DNA of 44,993 nt from Bacteroidales bacterium (GTDB lineage Bacteria; Bacteroidota; Bacteroidia; Bacteroidales; F082): positions 1-44,993 of the forward strand of contig JAGBQJ010000033.1 of NCBI GenBank assembly GCA_017632935.1, read 5' to 3'. Of this stretch, positions 28,516 through 44,993 are shown piece after piece (position 1 is the stretch's first letter; every line of letters begins with the position of its first letter). A program made the translations under genes and the position numbers. The notes under the pieces are model-generated. The model was not told the DNA's origin, made no database searches, and saw nothing but the letters and a program-made list of their open reading frames with translations.

Positions 28516-30180
28516 TTAGAACTTCACAAACTTAGAAACAGCCGTCGTGCCGTTGGCATAACGGAAGTTGACGAAATAAACGCCGCTCTCAAGCTCGCTC
28601 ACGTTAAGTTGGGCATTTCCGGCAGCAACGTTCACCTCGCTCACCTTGCGGCCTGTCATGTCGAACACGCTGACTTGAGCATCGTTGTCAAGCACAAACG
28701 ACACCTGCTCGTTGGCGGGATTGGGATAAAGGTTGACGGATGGGACAACATTCTCATTCACAGCATCATAATGCTTCGTATAGGCCTTAAAGTAATCGAT
28801 TTCCCAAGTCGAAGCGGCATCCGTGGTGCTGGTGTAAACGAAAGCGACAAAAATACCGCCGTCAGGATTCTGGTCATACATCTCTTCCTTCACGTTGAGC
28901 GCACCCGACTCAACCCACACGTATTCGCCCGATGAATAGTCGAAAGCGTCAGTGAAGTCGGTCCATTCAAAATCAGTAGGCTCGCTTTGGCCGTCATAGT
29001 CGGTGGAAGCCAACACGCGGATCGGATTGCCGTCATACTTCATGGCAGTACGGAACTCAATCCAAAGATCCATGTAACCAGACTGCAGTCTTGGGCTGAT
29101 GAGCCAGTCCTCATTGGCAAAAGCCTGACCTGCATAGCCACTCATTTTGGCGAAAGTCGTGCCTTGATAAATACTTTGTTGCCAAGCTTGGTCGCCGTAC
29201 AAATCCTGTGCAGTAAATGTGCCGAGGCTCCCTTCCTCTTCAAAGTCCTCAAACAGAATGACTTCCACATCCTCGGTGGATTGCGTCAAGGTCGGATAGC
29301 TGCCATCGGTCTTGTAGTCGATGTTGGCACCGCTGTTGGTGTAGGGGAAGATAGCAAAATGATAAACCGTGTTGTTTTGCAAGCCGTTGAAGGTCACAGT
29401 CTGAACGCCATAAGCCACATTCTTGGCCAATTCCGTATCAGCAACGGGAGAGCCATCGGTGGGAACAGTGATGTCGCCCAAGGAAGCCAAAACCAAATAC
29501 TTGGAAGGCAGTTGGTCGCCTGTGGCATCGTTCCAACGGAGGGTGATGTCCACACCATCGGTCATGGCTTGGAATTGCGTGGGATAGTTGCTCGGTTCCG
29601 GGTCGGGGTCAGCAGCACCACCGGCCTTGTAGAAGCTGACGCGAGTGGAGATGTTCGAGCCTTCTGCATAGCAGCTGAACAAGGGGGCGTTGTTTTGGGT
29701 GTTAGGGTTGAAGCGCATGTTGTTGCGGGTATTTTCGCCTTGGGCAACAACTTCGGCGGTACCATCTGCATTAAATGTGATGTTCCATTCGCCATTGGCA
29801 TCGAGGGTGGTTTGGGTCTTCAAATTATTGCTGTTGCTACTTGCGGCATAGAGATAACCGCCTTTTACCTCATCATACAAGGTCCAAGCGCCCGTGCTTC
29901 CACCCAAAGTGAGCTGAAACACATCCGTTGCACTCTCAGGGTTCGTACCAAGCGTAACAGTGATGGCATCACCTTCCTCAGCCACAACCACGGCATTGCG
30001 GTTATTGGTCTTCTGATTACCCATCGCAAGAACGCCTAAGTCTTCGTAATGCGCTACGATAATGTAATTGGCACCCGCCTCTAGACCTGAGGCAGAGGTA
30101 ATCTTAGTGAATGTTGTCTGAGCAATGCCACTCACCGAAAGAAGCAGCATGGCCACTAATGAGAATAGAACTTTTTTCAT
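28516..30180 (-). CDS. Type IX-secreted surface protein
   Basis: A 554-residue protein with a signal peptide ending G-I-A-Q at about residue 21 and a C-terminal type IX sorting domain of about 75 residues: L-Y-P-N-P-A-N-E-Q-V-S-F near 483, D-M-T-G-R-K-V and S-G-V-Y-F-V-N-F-R, ending K-F-V-K-F. The middle holds a fibronectin-III-like stretch (about 205-305, ending V-Y-H-F-A-I-F-P-Y-T) and a carbohydrate-binding-like jelly roll of the choice-of-anchor type (F-E-D-F-E-E-E-G-S, then D-W-L-I-S-P-R-L). It is expected to be exported through the Por system and kept on the surface. The ligand is unknown. Confidence 0.85.
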   Translation of the reverse strand: MKKVLFSLVAMLLLSVSGIAQTTFTKITSASGLEAGANYIIVAHYEDLGVLAMGNQKTNNRNAVVVAEEGDAITVTLGTNPESATDVFQLTLGGSTGAWTLYDEVKGGYLYAASSNSNNLKTQTTLDANGEWNITFNADGTAEVVAQGENTRNNMRFNPNTQNNAPLFSCYAEGSNISTRVSFYKAGGAADPDPEPSNYPTQFQAMTDGVDITLRWNDATGDQLPSKYLVLASLGDITVPTDGSPVADTELAKNVAYGVQTVTFNGLQNNTVYHFAIFPYTNSGANIDYKTDGSYPTLTQSTEDVEVILFEDFEEEGSLGTFTAQDLYGDQAWQQSIYQGTTFAKMSGYAGQAFANEDWLISPRLQSGYMDLWIEFRTAMKYDGNPIRVLASTDYDGQSEPTDFEWTDFTDAFDYSSGEYVWVESGALNVKEEMYDQNPDGGIFVAFVYTSTTDAASTWEIDYFKAYTKHYDAVNENVVPSVNLYPNPANEQVSFVLDNDAQVSVFDMTGRKVSEVNVAAGNAQLNVSELESGVYFVNFRYANGTTAVSKFVKF

Positions 30181-31596: not shown

Positions 31597-32283
31597 TTAT
31601 TTGCGAACTAAAAACGCTTCCACTGCCGAATTAAAAGCCTCATAATTCTTGTTAGCTACAAAATGGTCGCCTTCGAGAATGGCCAACTGGGCATTCGGCA
31701 AGCTCTTGTAAATAAGCCTTGTATGCTTATCTTTGATCATATCCTTCGTGCCGGCCACGACCAAGACGGGCATTGTTAAGCAAGCCAATTCCGATGGGTC
31801 GATATGCGGCTCATTGACCATCAGGCCAAGTATTTCGGCGTTTCGTTTGGCTTTTTCAGACTTTTTGGCGAACAGCTTCGCAATGCGATATCCGATTTCA
31901 ATAGGCCATTGATATATTGCTTTTACGCCATCTGGAAAAAGATTGGCACCGTTAAGTATCAGTTTTTCAACTCTTTCCGGATATCGCAAAGCAAACTCCA
32001 ATGCAATATTTCCACCATCAGAAAAACCCAGAATAATTGCTTTTGCAATATTTGTTGCATCCATAAAATCTTTTAAATCTTCTGCAAACTGTTTTATTGC
32101 AAATGGCTTATCTCCTCGCGGAGATTTGCCATGTCCTCGCGTGTCTATTGCATACACGCAATATTTTTCTGCAAAATATGGAATTTGATGCTCAAAATAC
32201 TCGCAACTCTCTCCGTTACCGTGGAGCAGTATCAAAGGCTGGCCTTGGCCTTTCTCAATATAATGGAGTTGGATGTCGGGCAT
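31597..32283 (-). CDS. Alpha/beta hydrolase
   Basis: A 228-residue serine hydrolase of the alpha/beta fold. L-L-H-G-N-G-E-S forms the oxyanion hole, G-F-S88-D-G-G is the nucleophile elbow, D-T-R-G-H-G-K-S-P is a family motif, and the acid and base lie in G-T-K-D and E-G-D-H-F. The substrate is unknown; an esterase or lipase-like role is possible. Its ATG is one base inside the stop of the leucine-rich-repeat gene (TAATG), so it is the last gene of the phosphosignalling operon, although a link to signalling is not established. Confidence 0.87.
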   Translation of the reverse strand: MPDIQLHYIEKGQGQPLILLHGNGESCEYFEHQIPYFAEKYCVYAIDTRGHGKSPRGDKPFAIKQFAEDLKDFMDATNIAKAIILGFSDGGNIALEFALRYPERVEKLILNGANLFPDGVKAIYQWPIEIGYRIAKLFAKKSEKAKRNAEILGLMVNEPHIDPSELACLTMPVLVVAGTKDMIKDKHTRLIYKSLPNAQLAILEGDHFVANKNYEAFNSAVEAFLVRK

Positions 32284-33329
32284 TATTTATACTTCGTCTT
32301 GCCGTCCTTCTTGTCAGACAAAGCCCTCTTCCCCTTGCTCAGAATCACAAATTCAAGGTTTTTGTTTCTCGAGCAATCTATGTACTTGATGTCACAGCCA
32401 TTTTGCAAGTCAACACTCGTCAGGCTATTGCTGGAACAATTGATATCCACAAGCTTGCCGTTGTTCACTAAAGACAATTGCACCAGCTGGTTGTTGGAGC
32501 AATCAAGGCCTTCCAACTCGACATTCTTCGATACATCAAGAGTGGTCAAAGTGTTATCGCTGCAGATCAAATTCTTTAATTGAGAACATGCCGAAAGATC
32601 AATCGCCGTCATCTTATTCTTATAAAGATTAATGGTCTTTAAATTCGGGCAGCCTTTTAAATCTATCGTATACAGCATATTGTCGCAGCATTCCAACTGC
32701 TTGAGATTCACATTCTTCGACACGTCTAAGAGCTTCAACTCGCAACTATTGGCAATCAAAGTCTCCAGCTGGACATTTTGGCTCAAATTGATGTTGGGAA
32801 TGCTGTTGCCCGTGCAGACCAGTCGCCTCAGATTCACAAAATGCTCAATGCCATCAAGGCTGTTGACGTCTTTTGTGTTATTCAACTTCTTCAAAAGCGA
32901 TTTGTCACGACCAAAGTCTATGACATAGGTATGTTCGGCGTCCCACTGGGAAAGTACTCCATCGCCATCCATATCGCAATAGCGCAATAAATACTCCTTT
33001 AAAACGGGGTCCTTGACGTCAATCTTAACCGTTTTCGACTTCTCTTCAGCGTCTGCTTTGTCTTGCTCCTCTTGCCTGATTCTTTGTATCTCATGCGAAA
33101 GCACGGCATTTTCATCTTGAAGCTCCTGCATCTGTTGCATGGCTTCTACACTGTTTTTCTTGTTACCCTTTTGTAGTGACTTGACCTTGGCTTCCAAGCT
33201 ACTGTTTTTAGCTTCCAACTGCTTGATTTTCAGATTTAACTCATCCATGGTCTGCGCATGCAACTCGCAGAACGAAAGGCATGCTAATGCAAAAACAGCC
33301 GTAGCATGAAGAATATGTCTTGCTTTCAT
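32283..33329 (-). CDS. Secreted coiled-coil, EF-hand-like, leucine-rich-repeat protein
   Basis: A 348-residue exported protein: signal peptide ending L-H-A-Q at about residue 26; a coiled coil to about residue 100 rich in Q, E and K; a calcium-loop-like D-M-D-G-D-G-V-L-S-Q-W at about 118-128; then about eight leucine-rich repeats of roughly 20 residues of the form L-x-x-L-x-C-S-x-N-x-L from about 160 to 330. The repeats are of the short, C-terminal secreted type typical of this phylum. It sits in the kinase/FHA operon 11 bases behind the membrane kinase gene, so it may be an extracytoplasmic partner of that kinase. Confidence 0.8.
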   Translation of the reverse strand: MKARHILHATAVFALACLSFCELHAQTMDELNLKIKQLEAKNSSLEAKVKSLQKGNKKNSVEAMQQMQELQDENAVLSHEIQRIRQEEQDKADAEEKSKTVKIDVKDPVLKEYLLRYCDMDGDGVLSQWDAEHTYVIDFGRDKSLLKKLNNTKDVNSLDGIEHFVNLRRLVCTGNSIPNINLSQNVQLETLIANSCELKLLDVSKNVNLKQLECCDNMLYTIDLKGCPNLKTINLYKNKMTAIDLSACSQLKNLICSDNTLTTLDVSKNVELEGLDCSNNQLVQLSLVNNGKLVDINCSSNSLTSVDLQNGCDIKYIDCSRNKNLEFVILSKGKRALSDKKDGKTKYK

Positions 33330-33340
33330 AATAACGCGAT

Positions 33341-34780
33341 TTATCTTGTCTTTAACTCAAAATTACCATTTGTAATAATATAGGTCTCGTTGGTTTCCTC
33401 ATTCACCAGAGTGCCGTTATCATAGTCCATATTGCCGTTCAGTAGGCCTACAAACACGTTCTTGCCCGACACTACAGTGCAGGTGTCAACGATACGATTG
33501 TTGACAAAAGCGGCCTTATAGACCCTGCCTTCCTTGGGGCCACTGGTGAAAGTCAGTTCGCCGTAGCCATCCATGTTGCCGTTCTTGAAATAGCCATTGT
33601 ATTCGCGATCGTCAAACACAGCCGTGCCCAAACCGTTGGGCTTACCAAAGGAATCAGTTTCGCCGTTATAAGTGTATTCCTCTCCTGACGACAGCATGAA
33701 CTGCGGCTGTACAACTTCTTCAACCAAGGGCTCAGGTTTCACTTCCGCTACATTCTTGTCCTTACCAACTAAAGCCAGCACAAGCACCACAATGCCCGCC
33801 ACCACAGCCAGTCCAACGGCACCCAAGATGATAGGCAAAGTCTTGCTCTTTGATTTTGCGGTTGGTTTTTTGGTGGGAGTGCCAGCGACCTTGCCTGAAG
33901 CGGCTTCCTTACCTACAAGGTCTATCATGAACTCTTGTATGGTTTGGTGTCGGTCTTCGGGTTTCAACTGCATGGCTTTCATGATGGTACGGTTGGCCTC
34001 TATCGGCAGGTTGGGCACAATCTTGATAGGCTCAACCAGCTGCTCGATGGAACGTGAGGCCGAGTCTATGGGCTTCTGACCCGTGATGGCAAAGTAGAAC
34101 ACGGCACCAATGGCATAGATGTCAGTATAGTTGCCCTTGCGGCTCGTGGAGGCATACTGCTCGGGCGGGGCATAGCCCTGCGTCAGGATGGCAGTATGAC
34201 GTTGCACTTCGTCGTTAACGAACTCACGAGCCGAGCCAAAGTCGATGAGCACCACCTTGTTTTCAGGCGTAATCATCAAATTGTCCGGTTTGATGTCGCG
34301 ATGCAGGATATGTTTTCCGTGGATATAGGCGATGGCCTCCGACAACTGAGCCATATAGTTGACGGCCACGTCGTAAGGCAGCTTACCACGGGTATCGACA
34401 ACATGCTGCAAGGTCTCGCCTTCGACAAAAGGCATGACGATGTAGGAAGTGTTGTTCTCCTCAAAAATATCAACCACCTTCACTACACCGGGATGGTCGA
34501 GATTGATCAAGGTCTTGGCCTCGTCAACAAACCTCTGGCGGTATTTCGCGAACATCTCCGGAGAAATGTCCTGAAGCGAGATGGTATGATGATGGGTGTC
34601 GCGCACGCAACGTCCACTCACGAAAAATTCCTTGATAACAAAGGCGTGGTTCAGCAAGGTGTGGCGGGCAAAATAAGTAATGCCGAAGCCACCCTCGCCG
34701 ATAACACGTTCAATGACATATTTGCCGTTGCACAAAGTGGTGCCCACGGCCAATTGTTTGATTTGAGGAGTGTTCTCCAT
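33341..34780 (-). CDS. Membrane Ser/Thr protein kinase with MORN-like exterior
   Basis: A 479-residue eukaryotic-like kinase. The glycine loop is G28-E-G-G-F-G33, the ATP-anchoring lysine K50, the catalytic loop H160-R-D-I-K-P-D-N, the metal motif D180-F-G, and A-P-P-E the activation-segment end: all catalytic residues are present. A basic linker and one transmembrane helix (about 316-339) follow. The exported C-terminus, about 365-479, has repeats like Y-N-G-E-T-D-S-F-G-K-P-N-G-L-G and Y-F-K-N-G-N-M-D-G-Y-G-E-L-T, close to MORN repeats, which may sense or bind envelope components. It lies between the FHA genes and the leucine-rich-repeat protein gene. Confidence 0.9.
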   Translation of the reverse strand: MENTPQIKQLAVGTTLCNGKYVIERVIGEGGFGITYFARHTLLNHAFVIKEFFVSGRCVRDTHHHTISLQDISPEMFAKYRQRFVDEAKTLINLDHPGVVKVVDIFEENNTSYIVMPFVEGETLQHVVDTRGKLPYDVAVNYMAQLSEAIAYIHGKHILHRDIKPDNLMITPENKVVLIDFGSAREFVNDEVQRHTAILTQGYAPPEQYASTSRKGNYTDIYAIGAVFYFAITGQKPIDSASRSIEQLVEPIKIVPNLPIEANRTIMKAMQLKPEDRHQTIQEFMIDLVGKEAASGKVAGTPTKKPTAKSKSKTLPIILGAVGLAVVAGIVVLVLALVGKDKNVAEVKPEPLVEEVVQPQFMLSSGEEYTYNGETDSFGKPNGLGTAVFDDREYNGYFKNGNMDGYGELTFTSGPKEGRVYKAAFVNNRIVDTCTVVSGKNVFVGLLNGNMDYDNGTLVNEETNETYIITNGNFELKTR

Positions 34781-34806
34781 TTGATGATATACCTTTAATA
34801 CAAGTT

Positions 34807-35295
34807 TTAATAGTAATAATCGAGCGCATCAAGTGCACCTGCCACACCCCAGACCGTGGCATATACGATTACCCAAATAACGAGGAAGACTATGGAAAGT
34901 ATCAAGCCTGCAATAGCCAACCCTTTCAGTTTGCCAGTCTTTTTGGCTCTGCCAATGCCAAGGGCGGAGAAGACAATACCTAAAACCTGCAAGAATGGAA
35001 TAAAGGCGAAGATGAAGCCCAGAATGGCAAAAACGTTGCTACCAGACTGTTGAGGAGCTGGAATCATGTTCCAGTTCAGCACTTCCCTACCGGCAAAAAG
35101 GATAATGTCGCCACGCTTGATGGGGAACGATGCATGATGTACCATATTGCCGTTGATTACGGTGCCGTTGGTGCTGTGATCAATCAAAGTATAACTGCCG
35201 TTGTTTTCCACGATTTCCGCATGGTCGCCGCTAACTTCAGGATTAGAGTAGCAAATGGTCTTTCCGGCGTTTCTTCCAATAGTATAAGTTTTCAT
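34807..35295 (-). CDS. FHA domain plus two-helix membrane tail
   Basis: A 162-residue protein: an FHA domain (1-75) with G-R-N near the N-terminus, S22-G-D-H-A in place of the usual S-R-x-H, and S-T-N-G-T-V; then two hydrophobic segments (about 87-110 and 120-150) of the DUF4190 kind, ending D-Y-Y-Y. Its FHA part is nearly identical to the protein at 35330-35569 and its tail to that at 35616-36203. It should read phosphothreonine at the membrane surface. Gap to the membrane kinase gene: 26 bases. Confidence 0.87.
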   Translation of the reverse strand: MKTYTIGRNAGKTICYSNPEVSGDHAEIVENNGSYTLIDHSTNGTVINGNMVHHASFPIKRGDIILFAGREVLNWNMIPAPQQSGSNVFAILGFIFAFIPFLQVLGIVFSALGIGRAKKTGKLKGLAIAGLILSIVFLVIWVIVYATVWGVAGALDALDYYY

Positions 35296-35329
35296 AGTGT
35301 TGAGATTTAAATGATTAAATTGTTGATTA

Positions 35330-35569
35330 TTATCTGATTAAGCTCCAGTTAAGGACAGCACCGTTGCCAAACAAGATGACATCGCCGCGCTTGATGGGGA
35401 ACGATGCTCTGTGGACCCTGTTACCGTTGACTATAGTGCCGTTTTTGCTATGGTCTATCAGCAGATAGCTGCCATTGTTTTCCACAATCTCTGCGTGGTC
35501 ACCGCTGACATCCGGATTCGAGAAACAAATGGTCTTTCCGGCATTTCTTCCAATAGTATAAGTTTTCAT
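35330..35569 (-). CDS. Stand-alone FHA domain
   Basis: A 79-residue protein that is only an FHA domain: M-K-T-Y-T-I-G-R-N-A-G-K at the start, S-G-D-H-A-E-I and H-S-K-N-G-T in the core, ending V-L-N-W-S-L-I-R. It shares about four fifths of its residues with the N-terminal domain of 34807-35295 and looks like a recent duplicate whose membrane tail was lost. It may act as a soluble competitor or adaptor for the same phosphothreonine sites. Gene spacing is 34 bases to the next gene and 46 to the previous. Confidence 0.85.
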   Translation of the reverse strand: MKTYTIGRNAGKTICFSNPDVSGDHAEIVENNGSYLLIDHSKNGTIVNGNRVHRASFPIKRGDVILFGNGAVLNWSLIR

Positions 35570-35615
35570 AATGTTTAGATTTAAATGCTTTCGTTATTAT
35601 TTCATTAACAATGTT

Positions 35616-36203
35616 TTAATAGTAATATGAGTCAAATGCATTAATCGCGGCACCCGCACCCAAGAAAACCGCATATACAATCACCCAGACAATTGTAAAG
35701 ATGATGGAAAGAATCAGGCCAGCAACAGCCATCCCTTTCAGTTTGCCTGTTTTCTTTGCATTAATAATGCCTATGATCGAGAAAACAATACCCACAATTG
35801 AGATGCCAGGTATGAAAGCGAAGATCAAACCAAGGATAGCAAAAATATTGGAGCCCGTGGACTGTTGCACGGGGTCTTGTCCCAGACCCTTATCTTCATG
35901 GTCCCTAGTGGTAACTGCGGGCTCTTCGACCCCTTCTTGCGCCTGACTGACGAATCCTGGAGAGAAATAGGTGGTCCATGGTAACATGGTATCACCAATG
36001 CGAACAAAGTCACCCTCGTCAAGCACCATTTCACCTTGAACCTGTTTGCCATTAACAAAGGTCCCGTTGGTGCTGTTGAAGTCAATCAGATGGTATGAGC
36101 CGTCGTCAAATTGCACAATCTGCAAGTGATGACGCGACACCTTATCGTCGTTATCGATGATGACATCGTTGCCTTTCAATCGGCCTATGGTAATTACTTT
36201 CAT
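35616..36203 (-). CDS. FHA domain plus two-helix membrane tail, second type
   Basis: A 195-residue protein: FHA domain 1-75 with R8, S23-R-H-H and S-T-N-G-T (canonical phosphothreonine-binding residues), an acidic linker (about 80-115), and two hydrophobic segments (about 120-143 and 155-185) with A-K-K-T-G-K-L-K-G between, ending S-Y-Y-Y. The tail is a close relative of that of 34807-35295 while the FHA domain is quite different. It lies five bases behind the soluble kinase gene and so is translated with it. Confidence 0.87.
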   Translation of the reverse strand: MKVITIGRLKGNDVIIDNDDKVSRHHLQIVQFDDGSYHLIDFNSTNGTFVNGKQVQGEMVLDEGDFVRIGDTMLPWTTYFSPGFVSQAQEGVEEPAVTTRDHEDKGLGQDPVQQSTGSNIFAILGLIFAFIPGISIVGIVFSIIGIINAKKTGKLKGMAVAGLILSIIFTIVWVIVYAVFLGAGAAINAFDSYYY

Positions 36204-36208
36204 TGTTC

Positions 36209-37030
36209 TTACAGTTTTATTTTCTTAATTGCCTTAGCCATCTCGGCGCAGGTTTGATACCTCAGCCAAGGCTCCGGACGGAGGGATTTTTCGATAATAG
36301 GTTGAAACTCGGGATTGACGAAGGGGCAAACCTGATGCGCATTAGGAATTCTGCCTAATTTGATTTTGTTCCAGATTTCGGTCGTGGTCGCTCCGTTAAA
36401 TGGTAAACTATAGGTGAGCAGGGAGAAGAGTGTCACGCCCAAGGCGAAGATATCGGTATAAGGGCCACATTGTTCCTTCTGGAACTGCTCGGGGGGCATA
36501 AAGGCGGGTGTGCCGATAGCGCGCGCATTGTTGTTGATGTCCTTCAGCTTGGCCGAGATGCCCATGTCGAGCATCTTCACTTTCATGTCGGCCTTGCGCA
36601 CCATGATGTTTGCCGGCTTGATATCCTTATGGACGAAACCGTTACGATGGATATAGCCTACTGCATCGAGAATCTGCAAAAACACCGGAACGACTATTCT
36701 GTCAGAAATTGGACCTTTAGCCACCTTACGCTGGTATTCTTCTAACGTCCAACCGTCTATGAACTCCATGACTAGATAGTCCTGATTGGGCATCTTGATG
36801 AAGTCTTTGAGCTTGGTGATATGCTCGTTCTTTTGCGAAAGAAACAGGTACATCTGGGCTTCCTTTTCCAAAGCCTTAAGCTGCGCAGGTGTCGGCCTCC
36901 GCGGCTCCTTGATGGCCACTTGGTTTCCCGTCTTGTTATCGATGGCCCAATACACCTTCGCGAAACCGCCGGAATCGCTCAGGACATTCAGCACATCGTA
37001 ACTATACTGTTTCAAATTCGGCAAGTCCAT
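36209..37030 (-). CDS. Soluble Ser/Thr protein kinase
   Basis: A 273-residue eukaryotic-like kinase domain with no tail or membrane segment. S20-G-G-F-A-K-V replaces the standard glycine loop, K41 in V-A-I-K-E is the ATP-binding lysine, H134-K-D-I-K-P-A-N is the catalytic loop and D155-M-G replaces DFG; A-F-M-P-P-E-Q-F ends the activation segment. The catalytic residues are present, so it should be active. The HKD form marks a different subfamily from the membrane kinase (HRD). The gene is five bases from both neighbours, encoding FHA proteins. Confidence 0.9.
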   Translation of the reverse strand: MDLPNLKQYSYDVLNVLSDSGGFAKVYWAIDNKTGNQVAIKEPRRPTPAQLKALEKEAQMYLFLSQKNEHITKLKDFIKMPNQDYLVMEFIDGWTLEEYQRKVAKGPISDRIVVPVFLQILDAVGYIHRNGFVHKDIKPANIMVRKADMKVKMLDMGISAKLKDINNNARAIGTPAFMPPEQFQKEQCGPYTDIFALGVTLFSLLTYSLPFNGATTTEIWNKIKLGRIPNAHQVCPFVNPEFQPIIEKSLRPEPWLRYQTCAEMAKAIKKIKL

Positions 37031-37035
37031 GACTA

Positions 37036-38034
37036 CTACTTTGAGTTCTTCTGTTTTTCTTTCAAAGCCTTGGCAATTCTTTGCTGACTCACACCGCCTC
37101 TTTCACTAGTGTTGAATTCCTCTTTCAAGGCTTTTTTTGCAGGCTTCTGCGGTATTTGATATTTGATACCTAAGCTTTTGCATATGCTTCCGGCATCTTC
37201 ATCACTCAAGGCGTCAATCAATTTCATTACATCGTCTTGCTTTATTTCTTCAGCCTTTTTCAACGCCTCATTGGCTTCCTCTACTTTTTTTGCAGCCTCT
37301 TTTTCTTTTTGTTCAGCTGTTTCTAACTTTTCTTTGGCTTGTGTTTCCTTATTCGCAGCCTCTTTTTCTTTTTGTTCAGCTGTTTCTAACTTTTCTTTGG
37401 CTTGAGTTTCCATCTTCGCAGCCTCATCCAGCATTTCCTTGGCTTCTGATGCTTTCTTTTCCGCTTTCTGTTGACGTGTTGCCGCTTCCCTTTCCGCCTC
37501 TTCCGCCTTTCTATTGGCATTGTCGATTCTACTTTGCGCTTCTTCAATCTGTCGTTGGGTCTCTTTTTCCAACGAGTCGGCGACTTGTTGCAAGCTGTCG
37601 GTTTTTATCACACCATCGATGACCTCTTCATACAGATTCTCATTCGATTGTTTCGTCTTCTCAAGGTCACTATGTATCCATAAGAAATAAGCAGCCACGC
37701 CTGCACCAGCCAACAGCAGTAATGCGACACCGACTATGAGAATCCACAGCCAGCTTTTTTTGCCGCCACTTTTGCTTTTGGTGACAAGTTGTTCCCATGG
37801 CACAAGGGCTTGACCCACTCTCAGTTCGTCGCCCGAATGCAATGTGGTCTCCGACGTTACCTTTTTGCCGTTCACATAAGTGCCATTCGCCGAGCCGAGG
37901 TCAATCACGCTGACGTAACTCCCATAGTTGATGATTTGGGCATGGTTTCTTGAAACACTTGTATCTTCTACAATGAAATTACAAGTCGTGTCTCTACCTA
38001 TCAGGATGATTTCTTGAATGTTGCTTTCTGCCAT
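37036..38034 (-). CDS. FHA, transmembrane, long coiled-coil protein
   Basis: A 332-residue protein: FHA domain 1-82 (G13-R14, S28-R-N-H-A, S-A-N-G-T-Y), a transmembrane helix at about 95-119, and then an exported coiled coil (about 120-270) very rich in K, E and A, ending in a small helical domain (about 272-332) that contains S-D-E-D-A-G-S-I-C-K-S-L-G-I. The coiled coil holds a 21-residue unit duplicated exactly at the DNA level. The FHA end is cytoplasmic if the lone helix runs outward. It lies six bases from the soluble kinase gene. It could link phosphothreonine reading to a periplasmic or envelope structure. Confidence 0.85.
   Translation of the reverse strand: MAESNIQEIILIGRDTTCNFIVEDTSVSRNHAQIINYGSYVSVIDLGSANGTYVNGKKVTSETTLHSGDELRVGQALVPWEQLVTKSKSGGKKSWLWILIVGVALLLLAGAGVAAYFLWIHSDLEKTKQSNENLYEEVIDGVIKTDSLQQVADSLEKETQRQIEEAQSRIDNANRKAEEAEREAATRQQKAEKKASEAKEMLDEAAKMETQAKEKLETAEQKEKEAANKETQAKEKLETAEQKEKEAAKKVEEANEALKKAEEIKQDDVMKLIDALSDEDAGSICKSLGIKYQIPQKPAKKALKEEFNTSERGGVSQQRIAKALKEKQKNSK
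37292..37404. repeat. 63-base tandem duplication in coiled coil
   Basis: A 50-base segment at 37292-37341 recurs without change at 37355-37404, giving a period of 63 bases (21 codons). On the minus strand it encodes two copies of E-T-Q-A-K-E-K-L-E-T-A-E-Q-K-E-K-E-A-A. Sequence identity implies a recent expansion or ongoing homogenisation. Confidence 0.88.
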
Positions 38035-38051
38035 GATACTAATTGTTTTTT

Positions 38052-40274
38052 TTATTCATCACTAGCCGTATCGTCATTAGAAGGTTTGATGGTTTTTGTC
38101 TTAGAAGCTGAATCCTTCAACTCAAAGTGTGCTTTATAAGTTGCATCCTTTTCTACCGTTATTTCAATGGCATCTTTTCCTGTTTGGTCATACGGTTGTC
38201 CGTCTTTTGTCCAACTCTTAACAACATAGCCGTTCTTCGGTGTTGCTGTCAAAGTGGTCTTTTCACCATATTCGAATCTATTGCCACCCGTGACAGTGCC
38301 ACCTTCAGATGGCTCAGCTGTAACTATGATATTATATGTTGGCTTTTGGGCTTTCGCTATTATTTTCTTAAAGTGGGCAACCACCGTGTGATCCTCGGAA
38401 ACTTTAAAAGCATGGTTGCGTTTACCATTGTCAACTTCTTCGGATCCATTATCACTCCAATGAGAAATTTCATAACCTGGCTTTGCTTCAGCTGTAAGGG
38501 TGCATGTCTCATTTTGGTCGTATTCACCAACTCTACCTTTGACAGTGCCACCATCAGACGGCTCAGCTGTAACCTTGATTGTGTATTTTTTCTCTGCTTT
38601 GGGCTTTTGTTTAAAGTTGGCTACCAAGTTACGGTTACTCCTGACGTCAAATGTAGCCTTGGCATTTGTAGAGACCTTTTTGCCATTCTCAGTCCAGTTG
38701 GTGAAAGTATAGCCTTCAGCAGCTATCGCGATAAGGGTAACTTTGGCCCCGCTTGGGAATTTGTCTTCGATTTTAGCAACACTATTATTATTGTATTTAA
38801 TAGTGCCAGCTTGAACTGGGGTAACCGTAGCTATAAAGGTGTATTGCGGCATCTCAGCAGGGACATTGGTAGTATTATCGATGTCAGAGTCTGTCGTTTT
38901 ATCAGGGTTTTCACTTGGATCAACACCCGTATCTTCAGTCACGTTACCACCTGTGTTTTCACCCGAGTTACCACTTGTGTTATCATCCGATTTACCACCT
39001 GTGTTATTGCTGGGAGTATCACTGGGATTATCACCTGATTTATTCCCTTTATTACCAAACAGCAATCTCCTTAACAGTCCTCTCCCTTTATTGGACTCGC
39101 TTTGGTCTCGCTTATTATATTCCTCTGCCAAATCTTTCTCCAACCTTTCAATTTTCTCCTCGGTCATCTTGTACGCCGTTGGACTATTTTCTTTATTTAA
39201 CCCTTTAAGTGTTTCCCTTGTTTGGGTCAACTCTGTCTCTTTTTGGGCTATTATCTTATTTCTCGCCTCTAAATCCGGCTGATCCAAGCCAAAAAGGAGG
39301 AGAGCCGCGCCACCGCCAACCAACAGCATTACTCCCACAATAATCAACACGAGCCATGTTGCACTCCTTTTCTTTTTGGGCGGTTCGACGGCTTGGAGAG
39401 GCATCTGCGGACTCACACTCATCTCCACATCACGGGTCGTGCCTCCATTCGGCTGGTTGCGCCAACGGGGGTTGTGGTCGGGGTGATTGCTGACAGGATA
39501 AGGGCTTTCCAGCACCTTGATGACCTGGGCGGTGATGTTATCCAAACCCTTGCCCGGCACGTTGGCGTTGTTCACCAAGTCGAGCACCTTCTGTTCCGTC
39601 GATTGGTCCGACGACAAAATGGCCTCGATACCGTTGTCGTCAACCATGCCTGAAAGTCCGTCGCTACATATCAGGAACATGTCGCCTTTAGCAGGCTGCA
39701 CGGGAGACATATACACCTCGGGCTTCAAATCTTCCTTGGTACCCAAAGCCTTCATAATCACGTTCTTGCGCGGATGATGTTCCGCATCACGGTCATCAAG
39801 CTGACCCATGTCGACGAGCGACTGCACGAAGGAATGGTCCTTGGTAATGCGGAACAGGCGCTTCTTCTCAGCTTCGAAGAGATAGATGCGACTATCACCC
39901 ACATGGGCGATGTAGGCATCATTGCCAGTGAACAGCACGATACAAGCTGTAGTGCCCATCCCCTTCAATGAGGGGTCGGCGGCGGCGGCACCAAGGATTT
40001 GGATATTGGCACGGCACAGGGCATCATGCAGGGCTTGGTAGACGTTGGGATAGAGTTGGTCTTGGAAATGCTGTTTGATTTGTTCCACAGCAATGCGCGA
40101 AGCCGTGGCTCCACCCACGTGTCCACCCATGCCATCGCACACGACGAAAAGCTCACCGTTGGGAACGGTGGCAAAACCGCACGAGTCTTCATTTGCCGCG
40201 CGCACCTGACCCTTGTCCGAGAGCCCGTACGCCTCAATGTTGGTGTTGTTAACAATATAGTGTTCGCAATTCAT
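38052..40274 (-). CDS. PP2C phosphatase with transmembrane helix and exported InlB-B-like repeats
   Basis: A 740-residue protein. Residues 1-260 are a PP2C (PPM) phosphatase: R25-A-A-N-E-D30, D47-G-M-G-G-H, G126-D-S-R, S204-D-G and D245-N, the full set of metal residues. A transmembrane helix (about 306-329) follows, then a coiled coil, a Gly/Asn/Asp/Thr-rich linker (about 410-475), and three repeats of about 75 residues with A-E-P-S-D-G-G-T-V and G-Y-E-I-S-H-W, the InlB B-repeat-like pattern. It should dephosphorylate the products of the two kinases. ATG 40274 is taken because the longer frame begins at a TTG. The gene starts five bases behind the FHA protein upstream. Confidence 0.9.
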   Translation of the reverse strand: MNCEHYIVNNTNIEAYGLSDKGQVRAANEDSCGFATVPNGELFVVCDGMGGHVGGATASRIAVEQIKQHFQDQLYPNVYQALHDALCRANIQILGAAAADPSLKGMGTTACIVLFTGNDAYIAHVGDSRIYLFEAEKKRLFRITKDHSFVQSLVDMGQLDDRDAEHHPRKNVIMKALGTKEDLKPEVYMSPVQPAKGDMFLICSDGLSGMVDDNGIEAILSSDQSTEQKVLDLVNNANVPGKGLDNITAQVIKVLESPYPVSNHPDHNPRWRNQPNGGTTRDVEMSVSPQMPLQAVEPPKKKRSATWLVLIIVGVMLLVGGGAALLLFGLDQPDLEARNKIIAQKETELTQTRETLKGLNKENSPTAYKMTEEKIERLEKDLAEEYNKRDQSESNKGRGLLRRLLFGNKGNKSGDNPSDTPSNNTGGKSDDNTSGNSGENTGGNVTEDTGVDPSENPDKTTDSDIDNTTNVPAEMPQYTFIATVTPVQAGTIKYNNNSVAKIEDKFPSGAKVTLIAIAAEGYTFTNWTENGKKVSTNAKATFDVRSNRNLVANFKQKPKAEKKYTIKVTAEPSDGGTVKGRVGEYDQNETCTLTAEAKPGYEISHWSDNGSEEVDNGKRNHAFKVSEDHTVVAHFKKIIAKAQKPTYNIIVTAEPSEGGTVTGGNRFEYGEKTTLTATPKNGYVVKSWTKDGQPYDQTGKDAIEITVEKDATYKAHFELKDSASKTKTIKPSNDDTASDE

Positions 40275-40279
40275 TTCGA

Positions 40280-41827
40280 TCAAAGATAAAATATGATTCT
40301 TACCTGTCCCAATTGAATCGTATCGGCACTCCTGAGCACCGATTGGGTTTGCATAGTGCCATTCACGAAAACACGGTTAGTGCTGTTCAGGTCGGTGATA
40401 TAGAAGCCATAACCATCATAAGTAATCTTGGCATGGTGTCTCGATACTGAATTGTGGTCAAACACAAGATCATTGTCCGACTCGCGGCCTATGGTAACCG
40501 TAGGCTTGGTCATGTCGTATTGGGATTTGAAGCCGTCCAAGTCGCAAATCATGCGCGGATAGACGTTCTTGGTGTTCATCAATGCAGACAGGCGCTCCTG
40601 TTCGGCCTTTTCATGATCAGCAATACGATTAATCTCCTGCTGGCGTTTGTATTCATTCAGCGAATTGTTGGCTTGAGCGATGGCTTGCTGGGCCTCGGCC
40701 TCTGCGACAAGCTGCTGATCTTCCAATGCCTTGATCTTGCGGGCTTTTTTCTTGTGACCCGTCACGCTGAGGACGATGGCCAAGACAATCAACATGATGA
40801 TAAGCAGGATAATCAGTGCCGTAAGGAGAAGGTGCTCCATAATCCACTCTTTCAGCGAGAACGCAGGCGGGAGGTACTGCTCTTGATATTCGACACCTTT
40901 GATATTAATGGCCACCGTTTGCGGGTCGTCGCCACGTTTCAGGCTTGATGTAAAAGTGAAACGGTAGTCATGGCCGAAATAGGCCTCGTCAATTTGGTCG
41001 TAACAGTTGAGCATGTAGTTGCAAGCCCTTTTTTCCTCATTTTGCATAAAACACTCGAAATTACCTTTGGTCGCCTTGGCAAAGTTGGCGGGCTCCAAGG
41101 CCACACCGCTACGTGGGGAATATTCGATGATATAAATCGGGATGTTGTGCCTTTGGGCCAACAGCAGCACCTGGTCGGCCGAATCGGCACCCGCCACATT
41201 GCGTGGATGACCGGCTGTGAAGACATACACGGCCTTCGACTCATTGCCCTCGGGCAAGTTCTTCAGCATCTCCACGGCCTCACGCACCGCTGAATAGAGA
41301 TCCGAGCAGTTAGGGGCATCCTTGAAGCTAAGGTCGGAATGATTATGGGCCAACACATTACGCCTCATCATGGTCAGGTCGGAAGAAAAATCAGAATTGA
41401 ACGGCTGCATCACCATCGTCGTATTACGGCTTCGGTTGAAATCGGCGATGACAAAAGCATCGTTGTTGCCAATCTTGCTACTCGACAGGAATTCGTCGAT
41501 GGTCTGTTTGGTAAAGTTGTGCTGACCGACACGGATGTCTTGGCCTCCACTGACTTCCTTGAAGTCTTCCCATAGGATGACAATGCGTTTGCCGGCATTT
41601 CCCTTATCGCGCGACAGTGGCTGCATTGTGAACGGCTTGTTCAAGCCGTTTTCTTTCAGGTAGCGGACATCTTTCTCCTGAAGCATTTCGGCACCGTCAT
41701 CGTGCCAAACGAACGACACATTGGGGAAGCCTTCCGAATTGAAGGTCTCTTTAATATACCCCTCGGTCTGAGCCATCATAAAGGGGCACAACATGCACAA
41801 CAATGCAAAAGTAAAGAGCTTTTTCAT
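40280..41827 (-). CDS. Exported vWA-like domain, transmembrane helix, cytoplasmic FHA
   Basis: A 515-residue protein with a signal peptide ending F-M-M-A-Q at about residue 20. Residues 80-240 have the strand-helix order of a von Willebrand A domain: R-I-V-I-L-W-E-D, S-D-L-Y-S-A-V-R-E-A-V-E-M-L, K-A-V-Y-V-F-T-A-G-H and I-P-I-Y-I-I-E-Y, but the DxSxS metal site is missing. One transmembrane helix (about 333-355), a coiled coil, and an FHA domain at 443-510 (G447-R, S462-R-H-H, N-S-T-N) follow. This places a binding domain outside and a phosphothreonine reader inside, so it may transmit envelope state. It is the second gene of the operon. Confidence 0.85.
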   Translation of the reverse strand: MKKLFTFALLCMLCPFMMAQTEGYIKETFNSEGFPNVSFVWHDDGAEMLQEKDVRYLKENGLNKPFTMQPLSRDKGNAGKRIVILWEDFKEVSGGQDIRVGQHNFTKQTIDEFLSSSKIGNNDAFVIADFNRSRNTTMVMQPFNSDFSSDLTMMRRNVLAHNHSDLSFKDAPNCSDLYSAVREAVEMLKNLPEGNESKAVYVFTAGHPRNVAGADSADQVLLLAQRHNIPIYIIEYSPRSGVALEPANFAKATKGNFECFMQNEEKRACNYMLNCYDQIDEAYFGHDYRFTFTSSLKRGDDPQTVAINIKGVEYQEQYLPPAFSLKEWIMEHLLLTALIILLIIMLIVLAIVLSVTGHKKKARKIKALEDQQLVAEAEAQQAIAQANNSLNEYKRQQEINRIADHEKAEQERLSALMNTKNVYPRMICDLDGFKSQYDMTKPTVTIGRESDNDLVFDHNSVSRHHAKITYDGYGFYITDLNSTNRVFVNGTMQTQSVLRSADTIQLGQVRIIFYL

Positions 41828-41863
41828 AGGCAGTTTTGCTAATGCTGATAACCAAAAAAAGAC

Positions 41864-42616
41864 TCAGAACGAGGAACGGAACTTGAAGACCGTCTTGCCC
41901 ACTTGAATGCTGTCGCCATCGCTCAGGGTAACGGCAACCACGCCAATGTCCTTGCCATTCACGCGAGTACCGCTTGTCGACAGGCTGTCTTGGATGAAGT
42001 AGCTACCTTCACGATAGAGCAGCACGGCGTGTTTTCCAGAAACAGTACTGTCGTTAACACTGATTTGGCAATCCAAGTCGCGGCCGATGATATTGCGGCC
42101 TTCAAACAGCTTGAAGTCGACACCCATATCGCTGAGCGTATACGAAACCAGCCATCCGACCAGTTTGCGCGAGCTACGCACTTCGCCACCGCCCATCCCT
42201 GGTTCTGAATCGTCGAAAATCATCGTCTTCGAAGCCGCCGGAGGTGGTGGTGTATTTCCCATGTTGTTCGGCTCTGGACTGGGGAACGCACCAGAGCTCG
42301 GTATCGTTTCGCCGCCCATTGCGCCACCCATTCCTGGCATGACTTGGGTCTTGTTGGCGTCGCTCATGCCACCACCACTCGTCAGTGTGGCTCCACCACC
42401 TGGCATAGCAGTTCCTCCGCTAGTCATTGTGGCTCCGCCACCGGCCATAGCAGCACCGCCACTGACCATTGTGGCGCCGCCACCTGCAGGAGCACCTCCT
42501 CCAACATATTCAGCCGTGGCATTAGAGATACCAGCGCTGTTTGAGCAATAAGGGCATTGAGCCAAGTCATCCTTGTAGAAATGGCCGTTAGGACATCTTT
42601 TGTAACCAGCTACCAT
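41864..42616 (-). CDS. Zinc-ribbon and FHA protein with a Thr-containing linker
   Basis: A 250-residue soluble protein. The N-terminus has C8-P-N-G-H12 and C21-P-Y-C24, a zinc-ribbon-like set. Residues 38-125 are a low-complexity linker of G-G-A-T-M/A-T-L-T-S repeats with K-T90-Q-V. At S129-K-T131-M-I-F-D-D a threonine is followed by hydrophobic and acidic residues, much like the phosphorylated motif of GarA/OdhI-type proteins. The FHA domain spans about 172-245, with G178-R179-D and S193-G-K-H. It is the first gene of the operon, with the promoter at 42682-42716. A likely kinase substrate; binding of its own phosphothreonine is an inference. Confidence 0.85.
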   Translation of the reverse strand: MVAGYKRCPNGHFYKDDLAQCPYCSNSAGISNATAEYVGGGAPAGGGATMVSGGAAMAGGGATMTSGGTAMPGGGATLTSGGGMSDANKTQVMPGMGGAMGGETIPSSGAFPSPEPNNMGNTPPPPAASKTMIFDDSEPGMGGGEVRSSRKLVGWLVSYTLSDMGVDFKLFEGRNIIGRDLDCQISVNDSTVSGKHAVLLYREGSYFIQDSLSTSGTRVNGKDIGVVAVTLSDGDSIQVGKTVFKFRSSF

Positions 42617-42681: not shown

Positions 42682-42716
42682 CAAATATAATATTTTTTTC
42701 AACAAAAAAGCGTTTT
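42682..42716 (-). promoter_or_regulatory. Promoter of the phosphosignalling operon
   Basis: Minus-strand TTTG at 42713-42716, a 23-base spacer and TATATTTG at 42682-42689: both elements of the Bacteroidetes sigma consensus. It gives a leader of about 60 bases before the ATG at 42616. No other strong promoter is seen inside the ten kilobases downstream except a TATCTTTG at 40281-40288, overlapping the start of the phosphatase gene. Confidence 0.7.
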
Positions 42717-42792: not shown

Positions 42793-44993
42793 ATGAAAAA
42801 ACTACCCTTACTCCTTGTTCTGGCCTTAAGCACCCTGTTTGCCTTGGCCCAAAACGGCCGCATCGACTTGCGCAGCGAGTCACGCGCCGAGATTACTTCA
42901 AGCGAATTCTCAAAGTTCAGTGCCGTATTTAGTTATGGCTCTGTTGAAAGTGTCGAAGTGATCACCAACCGTGGCACTTTCTCCGATATCACTATCGAAG
43001 GCACCTATGCCTCAGGCGAAATCGGAACGCCACAACTGCCTGCCTCACACCAACTATTGGCAGTGCCTTTCGGCGCCACACCTCATGTTACGGTGACAAA
43101 CTATTCTTACACGGACTACGACCTCGCCGCCTACGGCATCCATACCCTCATGCCACACCAGCCTTCCGTCCGCAAGGACCAGAGACCTGAAAACGTCGAA
43201 TTTGTCTACAATGCCACTGCATACCAAACCCGTAGCCTCGCTACGGCTCCCGAAGCCACCATCGAGGTGCAAGGTACCATGCGCGGTATTCAAGTCGGCT
43301 CGTTGGTGGTCAACCCGGTGAGCTACAACCCTGCAGCCAACACCTTGCGCGTGTTCAACAACATCGAAGTGGAAGTGAACTTCGACGGTGCCGACCGTGC
43401 CGAGACCGAGCGTATGTTGCTCAGCACCTATAGCCCCTATTTCGACATCGTCTATAAGCAGATGTTCAACTACCGCCAAATCATGGACGTTTACTCAGAC
43501 CACCCCGACCTGATGGCTTATCCTGTCAACATGATTGTTATTACGCCTGAAAGCTATGTCTCCACCCTACAACCATGGCTCAACTGGAAGACCCAAAAGG
43601 GCTTTTACATCAACCTAGTGACCACCAGCCAAGCTGGATCAAACTACAACGCCATCCGCTCTTATGTGCAAAACCTATACAACACGGGCGTAAACCAAGG
43701 CAATACGCCTACCTTCCTCATCCTTGTGGGTGACGTGGCCCAAGTACCCAACACTACAGGTTCCCAAACACAAAAGGTGACCGACCTCTATTACGGCTCC
43801 ATTGACGGCGACTACTTCCCCGACATGTTCTACAGCCGCATGTCCGCTGAGAATACCTCACAGCTTACCAACATCATCAATAAGATATTGCAATACGAGC
43901 AATACACCATGCCTGACCCGAGTTATCTCAATAAAGCACTGCTCATCGCCGGCGAAGACTCTTATTGGAATCCACGTGTGGGACAACCCACCATCAACTA
44001 TGCCACCACCTATTATTATAATACGGCTCACGGCTTTTCCAACGTATACGCTTACCTCAATTCCTACAGTGGCTGCTACAACAACCTTAGCACAGGCGTA
44101 GGCTTTGCCAACTACACCGCTCATGGCAGCGAAACAGGTTGGTCGGGACCTTCATTTTCCAACTCGAATGTCAACAATTTGACCAACACCAACAAATATT
44201 TCCTCGCCATGGGCAACTGCTGCTTAACGGGCAACTTTGGCTATAGTTCAGCCTGCTTTGGCGAGACCATGATTCGCGCCGAGAACAAAGGTGCCTATTC
44301 CTATATCGGATCATGCCCGGTAACATACTGGTACGAAGACTATTACTTTGGTGTAGGCGCGACCAATACCTTCGGCAGCACGCCCAATATCAACAATACT
44401 GCCACAGGCGTGTACGACGGCATTTGGATGGACGACACTTACAACACCGTCTCCTCCATCGTCTTCCTGGGTAACATCGCGGTAAGCTATGCCAGTACCA
44501 GTGGGTATCAAACCAGCGCCAACCCTCTCTATTACTGGCAAGCCTACCACATACTCGGCGATGGCTCCATCATGCCTTATCGCGTGGTGCCTTTGCCCAA
44601 CAATGTCAGCCACGCCAGCACCTTCCCGTCTGGAGCTACTTCCTTCCCTGTGAGCGCCCAAGAAGGGTCATATGTGGCTATCTCTCAAAACAATGTTTTG
44701 AAAGGCGTCGCTTTGGTACCAGCCGCTGGTACGGTTGATGTGCCCGTGAGCGGCATCACCTCGGGTCAAGTGCGAATTGTGGTCACCAAACCACAACGCC
44801 AGCCTTATATCCAAGACATTAACGTCAGCGCGGCACAAAGTTATACCATCAACGTGTCGGCCAACCCAACCGCAGGAGGCAATGTTGGCGGCGGCGGTAC
44901 CTATACCCAAGGACAGAGTTGCACCGTGACGGCCTCGGCCAACAACGGTTACACTTTTGTCAACTGGACCGAAAACGGCCAACAGGTCAGCAC
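42793..44993 (+). CDS. Gingipain-like C25 cysteine peptidase, 5' part
   Basis: An open frame of at least 733 codons that leaves the window. Signal peptide ending F-A-L-A-Q at about residue 20, then a propeptide-like domain (about 21-230) and the C25 caspase-fold peptidase domain. The catalytic His444 lies in T-A-H-G-S-E-T-G-W and Cys477 in C-L-T-G-N-F, followed by A-C-F-G-E-T-M-I-R-A, closely following the gingipain pattern. A beta-sandwich and then a B-repeat-like unit (N-P-T-A-G-G-N-V, G-Y-T-F-V-N-W-T) come after about residue 620 and resemble the tail repeats of the PP2C protein. Type IX secretion is expected; the sorting domain would lie beyond the edge. Confidence 0.9.
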   Translation, partial: MKKLPLLLVLALSTLFALAQNGRIDLRSESRAEITSSEFSKFSAVFSYGSVESVEVITNRGTFSDITIEGTYASGEIGTPQLPASHQLLAVPFGATPHVTVTNYSYTDYDLAAYGIHTLMPHQPSVRKDQRPENVEFVYNATAYQTRSLATAPEATIEVQGTMRGIQVGSLVVNPVSYNPAANTLRVFNNIEVEVNFDGADRAETERMLLSTYSPYFDIVYKQMFNYRQIMDVYSDHPDLMAYPVNMIVITPESYVSTLQPWLNWKTQKGFYINLVTTSQAGSNYNAIRSYVQNLYNTGVNQGNTPTFLILVGDVAQVPNTTGSQTQKVTDLYYGSIDGDYFPDMFYSRMSAENTSQLTNIINKILQYEQYTMPDPSYLNKALLIAGEDSYWNPRVGQPTINYATTYYYNTAHGFSNVYAYLNSYSGCYNNLSTGVGFANYTAHGSETGWSGPSFSNSNVNNLTNTNKYFLAMGNCCLTGNFGYSSACFGETMIRAENKGAYSYIGSCPVTYWYEDYYFGVGATNTFGSTPNINNTATGVYDGIWMDDTYNTVSSIVFLGNIAVSYASTSGYQTSANPLYYWQAYHILGDGSIMPYRVVPLPNNVSHASTFPSGATSFPVSAQEGSYVAISQNNVLKGVALVPAAGTVDVPVSGITSGQVRIVVTKPQRQPYIQDINVSAAQSYTINVSANPTAGGNVGGGGTYTQGQSCTVTASANNGYTFVNWTENGQQVS

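Follow-up and report, generated by a model that had tools for sequence, protein, structure and literature searches.

A ten-gene kinase, PP2C and FHA module in a Bacteroidales bacterium: a candidate phosphothreonine assembly circuit with no export machine in its gene run

What do two protein kinases, one PP2C phosphatase and six FHA proteins serve when they are encoded together and no machine lies in the same gene run? The window, by which we mean the whole stretch of 44,993 nucleotides analysed here, is a complete contig of a Bacteroidales bacterium, and direct reading ends at the contig ends. It carries 11 colinear ORFs on the minus strand, from 42616 down to 31597 (Table 1). The intergenic gaps from g1 to g11 are 36, -4, 17, 5, 5, 46, 34, 26, 11 and -1 bases, in agreement with the preliminary description, in which the genes were co-directional with gaps of 46 bases or less. 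A TATATTTG element, which we take to be the Bacteroidetes promoter consensus, lies 5' of g1 and was also found 5' of g1 at the related locus L021. The gene g3 starts with a TTG codon, or possibly with an ATG three codons inside. Domain analysis bore out the earlier count: two kinases with different catalytic loops (HKD in g5, HRD in g9, E about 9e-43 each), six FHA proteins with E values of 3e-15 to 9e-21, and one PP2C (g3), which scores above the NF033484 cut-off. These matches are far beyond chance. The two "exported binding proteins" have to be corrected: g2 and g10 both have a signal-peptide-like start, yet g2 itself belongs to the FHA set of six.

Table 1. Features of the kinase, PP2C and FHA locus, with positions in the window.
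Feature	Position	Strand	Description
Promoter-like TATATTTG element of the module	42682..42689	-	From sequence; 5' of g1
g1	41864..42616	-	Zinc ribbon, long low-complexity linker and FHA, 250 aa; FHA E 5.9e-16; candidate phospho-scaffold
KTQVM motif	42338..42352	-	g1 linker, Thr90; from sequence
KTMIF motif	42215..42229	-	g1 linker, Thr131, T-x-x-F type; from sequence
g2	40280..41827	-	Signal-peptide-like start, extracytoplasmic vWA fold (residues 75-285, predicted model), TM (about 325) and cytoplasmic FHA, 515 aa
g3	38052..40283	-	PP2C, TM (about 305) and three InlB/Flg_new_2 repeats; NF033484 244.7 bits, cut-off 230
g4	37036..38034	-	FHA (E 8.2e-20), TM (about 91) and coiled-coil-like region
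g5	36209..37030	-	Soluble kinase, HKD/DMG, Lys41 kept; Pkinase E 8.6e-43
g6	35616..36203	-	FHA (E 5e-19) and DUF4190-like membrane domain (E 3.3e-6, below cut-off)
g7	35330..35569	-	Stand-alone FHA, 79 aa; E 7e-18
g8	34807..35295	-	FHA (E 2.9e-15) and DUF4190-like membrane domain (E 3.4e-6, below cut-off)
g9	33341..34780	-	Kinase, HRD/DFG, Lys50 (Pkinase E 8.9e-43), TM (about 312) and extracytoplasmic MORN (E 6.8e-5)
g10	32283..33329	-	Signal-peptide-like start and leucine-rich repeats; LRR_4 E 1.1e-9
g11	31597..32283	-	Alpha/beta hydrolase, resident neighbour outside the module; keeps its position in module-free congeners

All 11 genes had been assigned to one operon. Their colinearity stands, but g11 lies outside the unit. 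A search for Mrp in genomes of the genus gave matches in 92 of the 99 searched, and 20 regions were taken for comparison. None of these 20 congener regions showed a module gene. The DNA-alkylation-repair gene and g11 were direct neighbours in 12 of them and were separated by one small ORF in 4, and g11 was not seen in 4. Where the distance between the two genes was measured, it was 9-166 bases in 10 of 11 regions, g11 being missing in one. In genomes G117, G126 and G104 the distance is 5.84 kb, and the module lies in between, beginning just after the repair gene and ending at about the start codon of g11. The spacing of the empty sites against these 5.84 kb therefore identifies g11 as a resident gene and the module as a present-or-absent block. 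Because g11 holds this position also in congeners that lack the module, the module is made of ten genes, g1-g10. Inspection by eye revealed no signal peptide in g11.

The content of the block varies. Compared with G117 and G104, the window adds g4, g9 and g10, and the acyltransferase, repair and C10 genes of that site are missing in the window version; in G126, g9 is found after g11. At the locus level, L021 and L023 lack g4, g9 and g10, and L022 lacks g4 and g10. Peptidase genes also occur around the site: a divergent gene at 42793-44991, cut by the contig end, encodes a gingipain-type C25 peptidase with a propeptide and an InlB-type repeat, and L021 carries a C10 peptidase at the module site. 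Type IX secretion sorting tails (Por_Secre_tail) were observed nearby, at 28516-30180 and at L021:13627-16170.

The residues expected of a working Hanks-type kinase, PP2C and FHA signalling set are intact in the sequences. The kinase g5 keeps Lys41, HKD at 134 and DMG at 155, the full Gly-rich loop pattern being missing, and g9 keeps GEGGFG at 28, Lys50, HRD at 160 and DFG at 180. All active-site motifs of g3 are present (NED31, CDGMGG49, GDSR129, SDG207 and DNIT248). The phosphothreonine-binding Arg and Ser are kept in 6/6 FHA domains, and the Asn in 5/6, with Ser at that place in g1; the fitness of these domains for phosphothreonine binding, on which the preliminary description depended, is thus upheld at the level of sequence. 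For six module genes compared between the window and L021-L023, dN/dS was 0.05-0.21 at a dS of 0.8-2.0, which is near saturation. The low dN/dS values therefore indicate that the module is under purifying selection. The genes g7 and g8 (34807-35569) are a tandem duplication common to L021-L023: their FHA domains are 81% identical and their 5' sequences are similar too. The InlB-repeat tail of g3 (38052-38843) is missing from the shorter PP2Cs of L021-L023. Within the loci searched it is most similar to repeats of the neighbouring C25 proteases (38-45%), so a domain exchange with the neighbouring C25 protease gene is possible.

We then sought readers, and a machine to be regulated, in the window's genome (G000), whose assembly is 92% complete. 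Six FHA domains were found in the whole genome, all of them in the module, and the only PP2C found was g3. Eight kinase-domain matches were obtained, two of them in the module; the six outside it, one of them weak, are L041-L043 and L046-L048, on contigs C51, C57, C24, C26 and C22. As all FHA domains found sit in the module, the readers are therefore its own, as far as a 92%-complete assembly can tell. TssC gave 0 matches in the genome, and the best TagH-type FHA score (TIGR03354), from a search of g11 and nine module proteins with g8 left out, was 44 bits against a cut-off of 120.25. An A2-type EssC-like ATPase gave 0 matches at E 1e-30, and PF01580 matched nothing but a 923-aa frame, regarded as the housekeeping FtsK, and a sub-cut-off scrap. 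No WXG100 protein passed the cut-off in the genome (best E 0.24), on a scale where WXG100-like ORFs of Bacteroidales score below the cut-off and divergent ones could escape. No FHA-ABC protein was found, all six FHA matches being the module's own. Pfam analysis of ten further ORFs of the window found no T6SS part, phage gene or Ter protein. The earlier statement that the window lacks T6SS structural genes thus holds for the ORFs scanned, which are a part of the window, and the TssC search of the genome argues against a T6SS just outside it, a case that the preliminary description had considered.

The module could nevertheless be the regulator of an export machine that was lost or that lies in the unassembled part of the genome, and would then be a relic or act in trans. 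Relatives provide a basis for this explanation. At L027, an FtsK/EssC-like ATPase and WXG100-like ORFs share a co-directional run with g1, g2, PP2C and two kinases; FHA-FHA(-FHA)-ABC-2 transporters adjoin the class I core (see below) at L105:6131-9046 and L107:16400-18760; and at L036:13222-19043, a class II locus, an FHA gene lies 8 bases 5' of ClpV-like, TssC and TssD genes, joining a T6SS to a kinase/PP2C/FHA locus. Against it stand the searches for TssC, A2-type ATPase and WXG100 just described, and the fact that four genomes (that of the window, G117, G126 and G104) keep the module with no machine in the run; the EssC-like ATPase of G126 belongs to a different gene group, at a distance of about 12 kb. 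Moreover, the module is kept under purifying selection and is therefore not decaying, which argues against a relic. We consider a lost or unseen machine unlikely.

The module is real, selected and conserved. FHA domains were found in 43 of 173 genomes of the family. The PP2C tree has four groups, which we named classes I-IV; class I comprises the window, L021-L024, L055, L057 and, basally, L027 (support 97/96). A g2 profile matched 10 of 393 genomes of the order and 2 of 395 genomes of a phylum sample, the window's own included in each. Among 19 distinct loci with a full-length g2, g1 is directly 5' of g2 in 16 and a PP2C is present in 15, so that the gene order is indeed conserved elsewhere, a point on which the preliminary description had made itself depend. 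The exceptions are L027, where g1 comes first and machine genes lie between, L103, where the contig starts, and L108, which is without g1. L101 and L102 have the g1-g2 pair only, and L037 encodes a g1-like protein and a PP2C without g2. By sequence, the core of zinc-ribbon FHA, vWA-TM-FHA, PP2C and kinase keeps its order across Bacteroidota, distant members included.

A minority of relatives have this core in one gene run with an energised exporter, either an EssC-like ATPase with WXG100-like ORFs or an FHA-ABC protein. No machine label was given to 29 of the 36 loci of the PP2C tree; the search for machines there used similarity to a small set of references, and covered ABC proteins only where Pfam was run. 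Machines and FHA proteins also occur apart: TssC was found in 13 of 173 family genomes, of which only G054, G091 and G101 also have an FHA match, and an A2-type ATPase in 9 of 173, 5 of these 9 being without an FHA match. Type VII-like clusters were observed in a diderm Bacteroidales genus at L027:1382-20000, L026:170-6515, L039:9311-17081, L059:984-6478 and L064:7452-13872. They contain an EssC-like ATPase, WXG100-like or small ORFs and a kinase, and L039 also has a papain-fold toxin-like ORF. At L107 the transporter is accompanied by an MlaD-domain gene and an M48 peptidase. A caspase-fold peptidase gene opens two class II loci, L028:14032-15180 (Pfam) and L030:14404-15552 (by similarity).

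The candidate scaffold of the module is g1, which has a zinc ribbon motif CPNGH...CPYC and a linker judged to be disordered from its composition alone. Position +3 after the phosphothreonine is a general selectivity position of FHA domains. In the linkers of 17 class I g1 proteins (1682 residues), a KTxx[FY]-like pattern, written post hoc with the class I sequences already seen, has 26 matches against 0.46 expected (shuffle maximum 5 in 2000 runs) and 0.39 per 1000 in other ORFs. One full-pattern site is in the g1 of the window, and there is none in L054 or L099. The pairs [KR]T number 56 in the 17 linkers against 15.6 expected (maximum 28 in 2000 shuffles); an aromatic residue follows at +3 in 25 of the 56, aromatics making up 4% of the linkers. 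For the strict form T[QE]x[FY], the 1682 class I residues give 16 matches, against 0.43 per 1000 elsewhere; the window and L021-L023 contribute none of the 16.

In 20 g1-like proteins from the other groups, the class I pattern, used without alteration, was mostly absent, with 5 matches against 0.88 expected: 1 in class II (0.37 expected), 3 in class III, all in L026/L039, whose sequences had been seen before the test, 1 in L037, whose g1 is class I-like, and 0 in class IV. The [KR]T pairs were enriched in class II, with 15 where 6.7 are expected, and in class III, with 20 where 7.5 are expected. Both counts exceed the highest value in 2000 shuffles, in a test run after these sequences had been seen and on related orthologues that are not independent, so that the enrichment may rest on few events. 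No such enrichment was found in class IV (1 against 2.1 expected). The residue at +3 after [KR]T is acidic in class III (13/19) and Pro or Met in class II (12/15).

Taken together, this anatomy suggests an inner-membrane circuit that contains its own writers, readers and eraser, in which kinases phosphorylate g1, FHA proteins dock on it and PP2C reverses the process; we give this reading slightly less than an even chance. In this circuit g5, g9 or both would phosphorylate a Thr of the g1 linker, Thr131 and perhaps Thr90, and perhaps other targets too. The FHA domains of g2, g4 and g6-g8 would then dock on the phosphothreonine and assemble a complex at the membrane, beneath the extracytoplasmic domains, and the PP2C of g3 would erase the mark and dismantle the complex. 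The extracytoplasmic vWA, MORN, InlB and LRR parts may serve as input or as structure. In some relatives the complex would add an exporter, through an ABC protein with its own FHA or a co-encoded EssC-like ATPase. In the window this slot would be empty, and the output would likely be the FHA-DUF4190 membrane proteins, or else the envelope complex once assembled. What the sequences show is the anatomy, from which writing, docking and output are inferred.

The preliminary description had already proposed an inner-membrane device acting by threonine phosphorylation that detects the state of the envelope. The first part is consistent with the TM-tethered kinase, PP2C and FHA proteins, several of them with extracytoplasmic domains; the detection of envelope state goes beyond what was found. 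If these vWA, MORN, InlB and LRR domains do sense the envelope, the signal might reach transcription by way of an unlinked factor. In g1-g10, Pfam detected no DNA-binding domain, in line with the earlier remark that no transcription factor is visible as output, and all FHA readers found are local; such a factor would therefore have to be a kinase target without FHA. We regard this route as improbable.

Beyond the window, we tentatively propose, with well under an even chance of being right, that Bacteroidota possess a phosphothreonine assembly module that is portable. Its zinc-ribbon FHA scaffold would carry a class-specific address at +3, read by the FHA domains of the module. The core would take up an ABC exporter, an EssC-like type VII machine, perhaps a T6SS, or none, and the window would be the machine-free version. 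Kinase/PP2C/FHA switches are already known; the points that stand out here are that the module is independent of any machine found, and that its scaffold has a candidate class-specific phosphothreonine address. If true, this kinase/PP2C/FHA cluster becomes a testable switch with named phosphosites and readers, linked to wider Bacteroidota loci, in some of which the core stands beside protein-export machines, including type VII-like ones in a diderm phylum.

Among known systems, the T6SS threonine-phosphorylation pathway (PpkA/PppA/Fha) is a post-translational switch built, like the module, from kinase, PP2C and FHA proteins, but the TagH match of the module is far below the cut-off and no TssC was found in the genome. 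TerY-P systems have a cytoplasmic TerY-type vWA and ter genes. The vWA, kinase and PP2C of the module occur together, and g1 has a zinc ribbon, as might be expected of an altered form of this stress triad; however, the vWA is predicted to be extracytoplasmic and is TM-fused to FHA, and Pfam found no Ter domain in the module or in the further ORFs scanned, a part of those of the window. That the module is a TerY-P-type triad appears highly improbable.

Two kinases with one PP2C, present or absent at one site in a patchy manner, also recall the phage-defence or toxic module KKP, in which an unbalanced kinase would stop growth, and PADLOC kinase models do match (PD-T4-6, E 1e-54). These matches are confined to the kinase domain and were taken as generic. 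KKP requires a CSD-fused and an FHA-fused kinase, according to the part of PMC11341870 that describes it; Pfam found neither fusion in g5 or g9, and no phage gene among the neighbouring ORFs scanned. We therefore think a defence role of this type quite unlikely. Rv1747 and PknF of Mycobacterium tuberculosis, an FHA-bearing ABC exporter and its cognate kinase in the account of PMC3908365, have their likeness in L105 and L107, while no FHA-ABC protein was found in the window's genome.

Parallels to the assembly circuit also lie in type VII secretion, described for Bacillota and Actinomycetota in the relevant part of PMC11217815 and also for Chloroflexi and other bacterial lineages in that of a 2012 polymorphic-toxin paper (PMC3482391). 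Genes for kinase, PPM phosphatase, FHA and vWA proteins belong to the Gram-positive variants T7SSc-T7SSj, as set out in that part of PMC11217815. The module shares with them a membrane kinase with an extracytoplasmic part (g9), a PPM phosphatase (g3) and FHA proteins, and a vWA is present in T7SSc; L027 combines genes of this kind with an EssC-like ATPase and WXG100-like ORFs. It differs in its diderm Bacteroidales host, its six FHA proteins and the ATPase and WXG100 not found in the genome, and its vWA is predicted to be extracytoplasmic and TM-fused to FHA, whereas that of T7SSc is predicted to be cytoplasmic. For the g1 linker, a comparison is offered by human MDC1, in which the FHA domains of RNF8 and Pellinos are recruited by the phosphothreonines of four TQXF motifs, with contacts to Phe+3 (PMC11884936, in part). 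MDC1 acts in eukaryotic DNA repair, and the motif of the window is KTMIF, a candidate from sequence; what the two would have in common is a repeated Thr-x-x-Phe, as in the post hoc pattern of the class I linkers, within a scaffold that stands beside its FHA readers.
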